In this document: positions 8,380 to 53,078 of the stretch, piece after piece
How positions within the stretch are numbered: position 1 is the stretch's first letter
How the letters are laid out: each line of letters opens with the position of its first letter
Source: Planctomycetota bacterium
GTDB lineage: Bacteria; Planctomycetota; Planctomycetia; Planctomycetales; Planctomycetaceae
DNA: 64,000 bases
Direction of reading: 5' to 3'
NCBI GenBank assembly: GCA_027618475.1
Contig: JAQCEJ010000016.1
Coordinates: 1 to 64,000, forward strand
Made by a program: the position numbers and the translations under genes
The notes under the pieces: model-generated
What the model was told of the DNA's origin: nothing
Databases searched by the model: none
What the model saw: the letters and a program-made list of their open reading frames with translations, nothing else

Positions 8380-8668
8380 TGGTCTCTCCGTATTCCACGA
8401 TTGAATTTCTCAATCGTGATGTCGACCCTTCGGGAAAACTATACTGCGAAATACATTATCGAAATGGTTACATAACTTGGTTGACGACAGATTGTCGTTC
8501 AATCGGCTCCCCTATCCGGAGCCCAAAAGATTACGATACTGAGCAGAGAGCAATACACACGACTGTACACATCACAACAACTTTTTACCAGAACTTTACG
8601 CGGAAAATCAAACGGTTCATGAGAAATTCGATCGAGAGACTCAGATGTCACGCTCGCACATCAGACCG

Positions 8669-11360: not shown

Positions 11361-11484
11361 ACCTTGAGAAATATCTGCTTCGAGTAAATGTCGGCTCCAT
11401 TTCAAATTGATTGATCGAAATAGTATCAACTGTCGGTTGCATTCCGCCAGAGAGGATGCACTACGATCGAGTTAACTACAAGCA

Positions 11485-11560
11485 GTTTCATAACCCTCTG
11501 GACTTCGAGTATTTCAGGACCATTTGAACGTCTTTTCGGTCGCCAACCGGGTTATAAAAC
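11485..11560 (-). repeat. Dispersed 76-bp intergenic element, copy 1 (reverse orientation)
   Basis: GTTTCATAACCCTCTGGAC...CGCCAACCGGGTTATAAAAC; reverse complement aligns full length with copies at 27411 and 52842. Confidence 0.85.
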
Positions 11561-11604
11561 CAGTTCTAAGCAATTCATGTCTCACCATCAAACACGGCAA
11601 GTAT

Positions 11605-27384: not shown

Positions 27385-27410
27385 TTGAGTAGCCACGATG
27401 CGTAGAACGG

Positions 27411-27486
27411 GTTTCATAACCCGGTTGGCGGCAGAATAAATGGTCAAATGGCCCTAAAATATCCGTCGTCCAGAGGGTTATGAAAC
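27411..27486 (+). repeat. Dispersed 76-bp intergenic element, copy 2
   Basis: Perfect 12-bp terminal inverted repeats GTTTCATAACCC/GGGTTATGAAAC. Confidence 0.9.
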
Positions 27487-27601
27487 TGCTAGTAGGCATT
27501 TTCCCAGCAGAGTGCTTCGTCGGAAAAAATTTGACGGTGATGACTATTGCGAGGTATGATCGATGCTAGTTGAGGACAATGAGAAGGTAACATCGTGATA
27601 T

Positions 27602-28480
27602 ATGAACAATTCACCTGCATCCAATCCCCCCTTGATTGATCCATTTCACAATCGAGAGACGCTTACTGCACAGGAAGTGGTGAGTTACGAAGACCGTCTT
27701 GCACAAGATTTGGGGTGGGGATTGAACGAAGCCGGAAAGATTTTTGAAGGTCGAAGCGAAGTCCAAAAGACCATGCGCAAGATCGCCGAGAGTTTAACGA
27801 TTTTGAGCATCGACTATGCGATTGTGGGTGGCATGGCCTTGTTTGCGCACGGATTCCGGCGATTTACCGAGGATGTCGACGTGCTGGTTACCGATGAAGG
27901 ACTAAAAAACCTTCATCGTCAGTTGGAGGGTCGCGGATATCTCCCGCCATTCGAACGCAGTAAGAACCTGCGCGACACAGATAACGGCGTGAAAATCGAA
28001 TTTCTTGTTACCGGAAAATATCCCGGAGATGGAAAGCCTAAACCCGTCGCTTTTCCAAATCCGGCTGACGTGGCCCAGGATCTGGACGGCATTCGTTACG
28101 TAAACCTCGAGACGCTGGTTGAACTCAAGCTCGCCTCCGGCATGACCAATCGCGATCGACTCAAAGATCTTTCGGATATCCAGCAACTGATTAAGATCGC
28201 GAATCTGTCCCGTGACTACGCTGACGGATTGAATCCTTACGTCCGCGACAAGTTCATCGAATTATGGAATGCCATTCATGCCGTTCCGATCCGATACGTG
28301 TTCATCTGGTCCAAAACCAATTCCGACGTCGACACACTGCAAGAAATGCTCGCGGCCGGGGTAGTCGTTGAAACACGCGACAGTCTGGCCGATGGCAAAA
28401 AATATCTCGTCACCACCGACCCAGACGTCGCCCGTCAATACAACATGCACGACGAAAACGAATTTATGGATCGCGATTGA
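27602..28480 (+). CDS. Nucleotidyltransferase-fold protein (AbiEii/MNT-like)
   Basis: YAIVGGMALFAHGFRRFTEDVDVLV, VNLETLVELKLASG, RLKDLSDIQQLI. Confidence 0.7.
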   Translation: MNNSPASNPPLIDPFHNRETLTAQEVVSYEDRLAQDLGWGLNEAGKIFEGRSEVQKTMRKIAESLTILSIDYAIVGGMALFAHGFRRFTEDVDVLVTDEGLKNLHRQLEGRGYLPPFERSKNLRDTDNGVKIEFLVTGKYPGDGKPKPVAFPNPADVAQDLDGIRYVNLETLVELKLASGMTNRDRLKDLSDIQQLIKIANLSRDYADGLNPYVRDKFIELWNAIHAVPIRYVFIWSKTNSDVDTLQEMLAAGVVVETRDSLADGKKYLVTTDPDVARQYNMHDENEFMDRD

Positions 28481-50074: not shown

Positions 50075-51943
50075 ATGGTGTCGATCATCCCGTTGCATCC
50101 ACGCGATTCAGAATTCGGCGCGACCACGTCGGACTCCCGATCGGTATCGGACCAGCGCGAGCCACAACAGACACCCGACGCCGACGGTCATGGCCGTCCC
50201 ATTGGACGATCCCGACTCGACGTTGATCTAAAGGTGATCCCAAATTCCGACGAGCTGCGCACACAAATCAGAATCGCGGCAGAACGGTATGTCCTGGCGC
50301 TCGACAAACGATCCCCCATCACTCGAGTTCAACTCGAACGTCACGGTTATCGCCTGCTGGCACAATACGAGTTCGACGAACCTTATCTCGGATTCGCCAT
50401 GGTCTGCCTGGGGAACGCATTCTGGAAGCCGTCGTTTCTGTCGACTCCTTATGCACGCCGTCTGCTGTTGTTGCCGAGCTGTTTTCCTCATCATCGGAAT
50501 TGTCCGTCAACAGCCGATTTCGTACACGGTAATGGCCATCGCAAAACAACAGACACAGAGTGTGTTGCCTGCCGGTTGATTCGATTGAAGGATCAAGCCG
50601 AACAGTGCGGTTATCGCGTTCTCGAAGCCGACAGGTCACCCGCCATTCTCAGCATTCTCATCGAAGGGAAAATCGATGCCATTTTAGGAATCGCCTCTCT
50701 CAACGATTTGGAAAAATCGGTCGATCAGATCATGATGGCTGGTGTTCCATCGTACGCGATTCCTTTAATCGAAAAAGAAAGGGACGAGTTCGTCCTGGAT
50801 GAACCCTGGGTCAGTGCGGTGATTGACCAATGTGACGTTACCCATGAATCGACGGCTATCAGCTACCTCCCGTTGATTCGCGCTGCTAATGACCTGTTTA
50901 ACGACGATTTTTCGACATTGTTGCCGAGGTCACAAAGTCGGAACGAGGCGATGGCGAAGTCGCCGCTCGGTCAGACCGAAGAGATTGCATTCGACTGGCT
51001 GGCCAATGGAGGTAAACGCTTTCGACCGTTCATCACACTGGCGGCATACGATGCCCTGACGGGGGGCAAGGGAACGACGATCGTTCCCGATGGAACTCGG
51101 TTGCAGTTCACGCCTGCCGTCGGCCGCAGCGCGATGGCGATCGAAGCCTTTCATAAAGCCTCGCTGGTTCACGACGATATCGAAGATAACGACCTTTATC
51201 GTTATGGTCGCGATACATTGCATCGTACACACGGCGTCGGCATGGCAATTAACGTCGGAGATTATCTGATCGGTCTGGGATATCAGCTGGTCAATGCCAC
51301 GCGAGAAGAACTCGGTGCCGAAGTGGCTTGCGACATTCTTGATAAAATGTCGACGGCTCATATCAAACTCTGTGACGGACAAGGTGCCGAGATGGCTTGG
51401 CAGGCGGCTCCGACCACGAAGTTCACGCCTGCCGAAGCTTTGCAGATCTATGCCTTAAAAACCGCCCCGGCGTTCGAAGCCGCGTTGTTTGCCGGCGTAC
51501 GCATGGCCGGGTCGACCAGCACTTACGAAGAAACGATCGCCGAGTATTGCCGTCACCTGGGGATTGGATTTCAGATTCTCAACGATCTGAAAGATTGGAC
51601 CGGCGATTACGACAACAAACTGGTCGCCGGTCAGGATGCCCAGGCCATGCGGCCTACCTTGTTGCTAGCGCTGGCATTGCAGGTGGCGAGCCCCGAACAG
51701 TTTCTCGAACTCGAATCGCTGATCGAGAATGCCGATGACGATGAACACCGCCCCGAACATTTTCGCAAGGTCTTTCACGATTGTGGTGTTTTCTCGAAAG
51801 CCCTCGAACTCGTCGAGAATTCGCGTCAGCGAGCACAGTTACTCGCCAATTCCGTACAATCGAAGGAATTTCGACAGTTGTTGCATTTCCTGGTCGACAC
51901 GGTCCTTGCCGAGGAACAGAAATACAGAGTCCCCCCCCAATAA
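50075..51943 (+). CDS. DUF116-polyprenyl synthetase fusion protein
   Basis: N-terminal Cys-rich DUF116-like (LLLLPSCFPHHRNCPS...CVACRLIRLKDQAEQCGYRV); C-terminal GGKRFRPF, LVHDDIEDND, LGIGFQILNDLKDW; ORF from 50006. Confidence 0.85.
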   Translation: MVSIIPLHPRDSEFGATTSDSRSVSDQREPQQTPDADGHGRPIGRSRLDVDLKVIPNSDELRTQIRIAAERYVLALDKRSPITRVQLERHGYRLLAQYEFDEPYLGFAMVCLGNAFWKPSFLSTPYARRLLLLPSCFPHHRNCPSTADFVHGNGHRKTTDTECVACRLIRLKDQAEQCGYRVLEADRSPAILSILIEGKIDAILGIASLNDLEKSVDQIMMAGVPSYAIPLIEKERDEFVLDEPWVSAVIDQCDVTHESTAISYLPLIRAANDLFNDDFSTLLPRSQSRNEAMAKSPLGQTEEIAFDWLANGGKRFRPFITLAAYDALTGGKGTTIVPDGTRLQFTPAVGRSAMAIEAFHKASLVHDDIEDNDLYRYGRDTLHRTHGVGMAINVGDYLIGLGYQLVNATREELGAEVACDILDKMSTAHIKLCDGQGAEMAWQAAPTTKFTPAEALQIYALKTAPAFEAALFAGVRMAGSTSTYEETIAEYCRHLGIGFQILNDLKDWTGDYDNKLVAGQDAQAMRPTLLLALALQVASPEQFLELESLIENADDDEHRPEHFRKVFHDCGVFSKALELVENSRQRAQLLANSVQSKEFRQLLHFLVDTVLAEEQKYRVPPQ

Positions 51944-52002
51944 CAGCTACTCCAGGCCTGTTTTCTATTTTCGCATTCACCCGAGAGAATACTGCTAACG
52001 TC

Positions 52003-52836
52003 ATGCCCCTGGTGCTTCGCATTCGACAAACGACGACGATTCCTCTGGAAGTGGAAACCATCCGCATCGAAACGGCGCGCGAACAGACCGCCGATGCCGT
52101 GCTCGGCACATTGATTCAATACGGTAATCAGCAAGTCCCGTTAGGCGAATTCTTCACCGCCGAGGGCTCCGCTTCCGACGAACAGATTGTATGGGAAGGA
52201 GACTGCTCGAAAGTCAAACTCATCGGAGCCCTGCACAATCGAGGAACCATTCGAGTCGAAGGAAACGCCGGCATGCATCTTGGTGCCGAAATGACCGGCG
52301 GCGAAATCATTGTCCACGGCAATGCCGCCGATTGGGTTGGTGCTGAAATGCATGGCGGCAGAATTCATATTCACGGTCATGCCGGCCACCTCGTCGGTGC
52401 TGTCTATCGCGGGGGTCGCCGCGGCATGACGGGGGGCGAAATTCTGATCGAAGGCGATGCAGGCAACGAAATCGGGCAAACGATGCGAAGAGGGCTTATC
52501 GCCGTCGGTGGCAAGGCGGGAGATGCCATCGGTTTCAGTATGATTGCAGGGACGGTACTTGTATTCGGTGAGCCGGGCATTCGTCACGGTGCGGGCATGA
52601 AACGAGGCACAATCGGCCTGCTCAGTGAATCGTCGTCTCCCGATCTGCTTCCCACGTTTCGTTATTGTACGACGTATCGTCCCAATTTCTTGCGAATTTA
52701 CTTGAAAGCCTTGCAGCAGCGAGGATTTCCCGTTCCCGAACATTGCTGGACAACACGCTTTCACCGTTTTGCCGGAGACTTTCTCGAGGACGGAAAGGGT
52801 GAAATCTTGATCTCGGAGAACGCGTTATCGGTGTAG
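52003..52836 (+). CDS. fhcC: Formylmethanofuran dehydrogenase subunit C-like protein
   Basis: Repeated GGEIIVHGNAADWVGAEMHGGRIHIHGHAGHLVGAVYRGGRRGMTGGEILIEGDAGNEIG beta-helix. Confidence 0.88.
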   Translation: MPLVLRIRQTTTIPLEVETIRIETAREQTADAVLGTLIQYGNQQVPLGEFFTAEGSASDEQIVWEGDCSKVKLIGALHNRGTIRVEGNAGMHLGAEMTGGEIIVHGNAADWVGAEMHGGRIHIHGHAGHLVGAVYRGGRRGMTGGEILIEGDAGNEIGQTMRRGLIAVGGKAGDAIGFSMIAGTVLVFGEPGIRHGAGMKRGTIGLLSESSSPDLLPTFRYCTTYRPNFLRIYLKALQQRGFPVPEHCWTTRFHRFAGDFLEDGKGEILISENALSV

Positions 52837-52841
52837 AACTG

Positions 52842-52917
52842 GTTTCATCACCCGGTTGGCGACAGAAAAATCGTTCGAATTACCCTAAAATATCCATCGT
52901 CCAGAGGGTTATGAAAA
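52842..52917 (+). repeat. Dispersed 76-bp intergenic element, copy 3
   Basis: GTTTCATCACCCGGTTGGCG...CCAGAGGGTTATGAAAA; about 65/76 hand-counted identities with copy 2. Confidence 0.9.
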
Positions 52918-53078
52918 GATTTGTAGGATGATGCACTCGATGGATCGTCCGGTTGGTGAAGGAAACGCCGTTCCCTTTTTGAAAACCAACCACCACAGGG
53001 GATGGGTATCAAACGGCGCGTCATCTCCTCCCCATACAACGAACACGACGTCGTGTTTCATATCCGAAATCTGCCGGC

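Follow-up and report, generated by a model that had tools for sequence, protein, structure and literature searches.

The dispersed repeat in this 64-kb window (the whole stretch of DNA that was analysed) is a MITE, an 88-bp unit flanked by TA dinucleotides, and direct evidence establishes this identity. It is a new family within a well-known class of genomic parasite, and not an RNA or a REP element. The fuller description, of a non-autonomous, TA-flanked 88-bp MITE that is probably mobilised by transposases of the IS5/IS427 type, is one that we hold with considerable confidence; the transposase type is a probable assignment, made only from the similarity of the ends. No earlier report of the family was found in the literature searched, and searches of plasmid and phage collections gave no match. 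The result adds a large MITE family to the planctomycetes, whose small repeats are little studied.

Alignment of the copies gave an 88-bp unit between two TA dinucleotides, TA-GAACTGGTTTCATAACCCGG…(variable)…CCAGAGGGTTATGAAACTGCTTG-TA, also written TA-GAACTGGTTTCATAACCCGGTTGGCG...CGTCCAGAGGGTTATGAAACTGCTTG-TA, and similarity between copies ceased at the TA on both sides. Exactly 88 bp separated the flanking dinucleotides in 126 of the 146 copies measured. At its two outer ends the unit carries an imperfect inverted repeat that extends over about 18 bp, GAACTG/CAAGCA and then GTTTCATAACCC on each side; the inner 12 bp are perfectly repeated in the copy at 27411-27486. Short, devoid of coding capacity and bounded by terminal inverted repeats (TIRs), the unit is built as a bacterial MITE is. 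The insertion site is palindromic by preference, mostly with a pyrimidine 5′ of the TA and a purine 3′ of it (YTAR). An earlier note had described a 76-nt unit at 27411-27486, 52842-52917 and, in reverse, 11485-11560. The three copies lie at these coordinates and on these strands, and the perfect 12-bp inverted ends reported for the first of them are present; the repeat is thus real, and the 76-mer is the core of 88 bp plus flanking TA. Features of the window and of related loci are collected in Table 1.

Table 1. Positions of the MITE copies, their target duplications and other repeat elements (window coordinates unless a locus is named)
Feature	Position	Strand	Evidence or remark
Copy 1, 88-bp MITE	11479..11566	-	sequence; covariance model 112.7 bits
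TA duplication, left end of copy 1	11567..11568	.	sequence
TA duplication, right end of copy 1	11477..11478	.	sequence
Copy 2, 88-bp MITE	27405..27492	+	sequence; covariance model match 27400-27498, 112 bits
Copy 2, perfect 12-bp inner inverted repeat	27411-27422 and 27475-27486		GTTTCATAACCC/GGGTTATGAAAC
Left TA duplication, copy 2	27403..27404	.	sequence
Right TA duplication, copy 2	27493..27494	.	sequence
Copy 3, 88-bp MITE	52836..52923	+	sequence; covariance model 108 bits
Copy 3, slightly decayed TIR			GTTTCATCACCC / GGGTTATGAAAA
Right TA duplication, copy 3	52924..52925	.	sequence
TAG stop of upstream gene	52834..52836	+	target TA plus first base of copy 3
Fourth copy, decayed or truncated	~8456..8551	+	left half alone recognisable; 28 bits, E 3.8e-5
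Multi-copy 935-bp IS5-family element, TA duplication	G265 L404:1501-2435 and L441-L447		two overlapping ORFs
Palindromic family of ~130 nt (G000)	L286:4211-4337, L189:1914-2040, L276:7149-7261, L184:15257-15365, L206:7954-8088		

Three occurrences of the 3′ landmark motif GTCCAGAGGGTTATGAAA, with up to three mismatches allowed, were present in the window, where shuffled sequences gave an expectation of 0.02. The three clear copies of the earlier note are joined by a fourth, decayed one. The distances of 27 and 6 nt that it gave from upstream stop codons were also correct; the stop codon before the copy at 52842 is not simply upstream, as its TAG includes the first G of the element. The gene concerned is formylmethanofuran dehydrogenase subunit C-like (ORF 51781-52836), which takes its stop codon from the inserted copy. 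A 292-aa ORF just 3′ of copy 2 (27602-28480) gave a weak match to AbiEii-type nucleotidyltransferases (E 5e-6).

The source genome (G000) is a draft of 5.93 Mb in 218 contigs. The landmark pair CCCGGTTGGCG...GTCCAGAGGG gave 80 exact matches in it and none with the reversed control. The further copies that the earlier note had proposed to look for were abundant: with a covariance model of 99 positions, built from 43 copies, at least 148 full-length copies were detected in the 5.93 Mb (E 1.7e-27 to 2.7e-13), and additional regions of the genome yielded three more strong copies and several decayed ones, making at least 151 strong copies. Sets of identical copies were found at unrelated sites, 16 of 146 copies being identical to another copy and 62 lying within four differences of one. 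Because several copies are identical, amplification must also have been recent, and the description of the family as old was only half right. Dispersal at high copy number with recent amplification is likewise a property of bacterial MITEs. Orphan TIR ends were considered as signs of longer elements in a scan that covered 1.1 Mb of G000 together with 0.69 Mb from other loci; those at C64:42483, C163:5715, C109:22855 and C84:73107 lose their similarity within the element and have the appearance of truncated or decayed copies.

Insertion was examined first at the borders of the 62 recent copies, 56 of which had TA on both sides; matched deviants were TT/TT (1) and GA/GA (1). The flanks of each copy were then joined with one TA and compared against other fetched sequence. 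The joined sites at C214:13277 and C37:2018 matched paralogues with 92% and 97% identity respectively; a single TA stood at each junction and the alignments had no other gap. The junctions at C206:3441, C83:35547 and C210:13599 were likewise free of gaps against paralogous sequence. At C21:10052 the MITE interrupts an IS200-type Y1 transposase gene. Once the element is taken out together with one TA, the gene is again in frame, ...IYSTKHRMPW (LIYSTKHRMPWIS), and the restored ORF aligns to the corresponding gene of G080 with a gap-free junction. These empty sites, together with the restored Y1 frame, show insertion with duplication of TA, again as found for bacterial MITEs. In other genera, departures from TA on the left were usually unmatched on the right and the duplication was less clean; since deviants are rarely matched there, one has to assume later mutation or a less strict choice of target.

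The mode of insertion also bears on the REP-like origin suggested in the earlier note, in which a REP/REPIN-type element would be moved by a RAYT (Y1, HUH) transposase. Like GTAG REPs and their RAYT/TIRYT partners, which are reported from planctomycetes too (PMC3733652), the MITE is palindromic, intergenic and abundant, and its right border, ...TTGTAG, resembles the GTAG tag of REPs; there are 14 Y1 matches in G000, and Rhodopirellula baltica is reported to have REP families and many Y1 genes (PMC3733652). The resemblance at this one border is superficial, however, as the GTAG consists of the last G of the element, the duplicated TA and the flanking purine. Duplication of TA is not characteristic of single-strand Y1 insertion, and at 88 bp the MITE is longer than REPs, which measure 20-40 bp. 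As to the RAYT/TnpA-type partner that the earlier note proposed to look for, the coordinates show the MITE flanking none of the 14 Y1 loci in G000, and the sole adjacent Y1 gene is the one that the MITE interrupts. A Y1 search of 19 genomes and a model scan of the Y1 loci spoke against a REP/RAYT system, and we regard this origin as extremely improbable. Palindromes ending in GTAG are thus not necessarily REPs.

Other repeats were seen at MITE insertion sites. The interrupted Y1 gene (L186:3900-4650) is bounded by CCCCTACGGGGC palindromes, and the two together are likely to be a true REP/RAYT-like system. Another palindromic repeat family in G000, of about 130 nt with the motif GTCTCACAACCACACTGCCGGACAAACCGGCAGTG (Table 1), is itself a target of the MITE at C83 and C56, and short, degenerate, tandem-like intergenic runs of AATGACGAATGACTAAATCCTAATGAC in L289, L287, L194, L179 and L266 (G000) provide YTAR targets.

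To place the copies relative to genes, 1.0 Mb of fetched sequence was run through a simple codon-model gene caller. Although 80% of this sequence is coding, none of the 135 copies placed lay inside a gene, which bears out the intergenic location noted earlier; at C21 the Y1 gene that the MITE interrupts survives as a remnant, and no gene spanning the element was scored there. The gaps holding the copies were co-directional in 89 cases, divergent in 30 and convergent in 16, roughly in proportion to the intergenic bases (59%, 31% and 10% respectively), and orientation within co-directional gaps was unbiased (49:40). With TIRs, a duplicated TA target, high copy number, no coding capacity and intergenic placement, the MITE family that the earlier note had offered as one possibility is confirmed.

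Eighteen copies share the stop codon of the upstream gene, a TAG in which the element's first G completes the target TA, and proximity to stop codons, raised in the earlier note, is largely due to such insertions into the stop codon itself. All 18 lie with the left end towards the gene and none with the right, because TA followed by the first G re-creates TAG. Of 10 such copies with an intact right TA, 9 had a purine as the next base, which is what a TAA or TAG stop codon as target would leave. About one-tenth of the available non-genic YTAR sites sampled (126 of some 1195) are stop codons, and therefore no special targeting of stop codons is needed. The one-sided orientation, 18:0, is what selection would leave. 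We propose that an IS5-family (IS427-like) DDE transposase acting in trans would most likely recognise the MITE ends and would insert the element at YTAR with duplication of the TA. Selection would then remove intragenic insertions, so that copies pile up between genes, while a copy that enters a TAA or TAG stop with its left end towards the gene is silent, TA and the first G restoring TAG. Many genes in G000 end in TAGAACTGGTTTC as a result of MITE insertion into the stop codon, which is useful to annotators, and the family offers a clear example of a MITE settling harmlessly in stop codons.

Relatives were sought beyond the source genome, as the earlier note had suggested for related planctomycetes. 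A strict pattern search of 40 genomes matched G000 only, with no exact relative in the other 39. When 101 genomes from the same family were screened with covariance models, 13 proved to contain relatives, spread over about ten genera, mostly of the same 99-position length and with many copies per genome; the records include Planctomycetaceae bacterium ACE_PLA28, Planctomyces sp. D1_MAG_00055, IP29b_bin.173, IP29b_bin.70 and HKST-UBA56. The majority of the 101 genomes have no relatives, and this patchy distribution fits a mobile element. In other families of the class, elements of 80-141 bp have only the ends TAGAAGCNGTTTCAWAAC in common. Between genera the arms co-vary, including four inner pairs beyond a conserved asymmetric GGTT/CAGA internal loop. 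A single MITE lineage may have kept the 88-bp architecture, with this loop and the co-varying stem, across some ten genera as the sequence of its interior drifted, its left end adapted to stop codons; we put this forward tentatively and think it rather unlikely. If it were true, selection, whether for transposition or for tolerance by the host, would act on length and hairpin, and the left end that turns TA into TAG would be an adaptation for harmless insertion in stop codons.

Co-variation of this kind could also come from a conserved structured RNA, such as a 3′ UTR hairpin or terminator-like structure selected at gene ends; the earlier note had suggested a conserved 3′ RNA hairpin. Many copies do lie near stop codons, and some form a strong hairpin on the top strand of the element (z -4.8 for the copy at 27411, -1.7 to -2.4 for the other two). 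Co-variation of the arms is also expected, however, of terminal repeats read by one transposase, and the stop codons are near largely because copies inserted into them. The unbiased orientation in co-directional gaps, the 30 copies in divergent gaps and the overall placement in proportion to intergenic sequence do not fit a function at gene ends, nor do identical copies at unrelated sites, empty sites with TA duplication or the patchy species distribution. The copies read show no consistent T-run beyond the element, and at the Rfam gathering score only a tRNA elsewhere in the window was matched, with sub-threshold chance matches at the copy. We consider the RNA explanation very unlikely, and return to the MITE and its probable transposase.

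The TIR pattern TA-GAAGCNGTTTCAWAAC matched 29 of 399 genomes of the class, with no match for the reversed control. One of these, G265, contains at least four TIR pairs 935 bp apart, which enclose two overlapping ORFs (148 and 132 aa) matching DUF4096, DDE_Tnp_1 and NCBIfam transpos_IS5_3, and these IS copies have TA at both borders. Near-identical TIRs (TA-GAAGCNGTTTCAAAACC) bound autonomous IS5-family (IS427-like) elements of 0.86–0.98 kb in related planctomycetes, and G013, G024, G004, G103, G018 and G125 carry similar IS5-family elements whose ends are related; in G004 the variant GTCTCAAAAC is common to IS and MITE, and it is also present in an IS of G079. The G000 MITE ends (GAACTGGTTTCATAACC / CAAGCAGTTTCATAACC) agree with the G265 IS ends at 16 of 18 positions, where at least 14 of 18 would arise at random with a probability of about 1.5e-5. 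The 2-bp TA duplication is that expected of derivation from IS5/IS427. Members of the IS427 group of the IS5 family (e.g. IS1248, ISPaes1) are 832-865 bp long, with two overlapping frameshifted ORFs, 13-21-bp TIRs and mostly 2-bp target duplications (PMC3281130). The G265 IS is close to this group in its size, its 2-bp duplication and its frameshifted ORFs. The MITE resembles them in TIRs and duplication, and planctomycete IS427-like members share with it the TIR core GTTTCAAAACC and the TA target; it differs in being 88 bp long and having no transposase gene. As far as sequence comparison goes, the ends would most likely be recognised by an IS427-type transposase, and the MITE is tied to a TIR group common to IS5/IS427-type elements in several families of the class.

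The class of partner is well supported by these comparisons. No IS with exact GTTTCATAACC ends was found in the 218-contig draft of G000, where the IS5_3 loci carry other or more divergent TIRs (C84, GAGCCTGTTAT; C190, GAGCCGCCGTCAAAACC); an active partner may have been lost from G000 or may lie in an assembly gap. An IS5_3 search gave no match in G066, which has many MITE copies, and one partial match each in G060 and G059.

TA duplication is also found with RUP of Streptococcus pneumoniae, an IS630-associated MITE with the ends of IS630-Spn1. RUP is about 100 bp long, is present in about 100 or more copies, has inverted repeats and is mobilised in trans, all much as proposed here. An IS630/Tc1-mariner-type MITE would account for the target and the size, and G000 has one IS630-type locus. 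The ends speak against it: those of IS630 elements from G000 and four other genomes agree with the G000 MITE in six or fewer of 18 positions, as against up to 16 of 18 for IS5-family ends. The copy-rich genomes G060 and G066 gave no DDE_3 match, and a DDE_3 search of 19 genomes with TIR reconstruction yielded no IS630 partner with matching ends. An IS630-type origin is thus improbable, and the MITE differs from RUP in having IS5/IS427-type ends.

ERIC and Correia (NEMIS) elements, too, are MITE-like palindromes that lie between genes, insert at TA-type sites and are transcribed as hairpins. They belong to a different phylum; ERIC is not known to have an IS partner, and no sequence relation is known between either and the planctomycete MITE. 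Integron attC sites were also considered and rejected: these have RYYYAAC / GTTRRRY core sites in cassette arrays, whereas the MITE has GTTATGA or GTTTTGA in its arms, which does not fit GTTRRRY, and its copies are scattered one by one. IS630-type elements with TIRs of about GTAGTCCATCTA..GTTAAA, unrelated to the MITE, are present at L328 (G000 C200) and at L329, L337 and L345 (G080).
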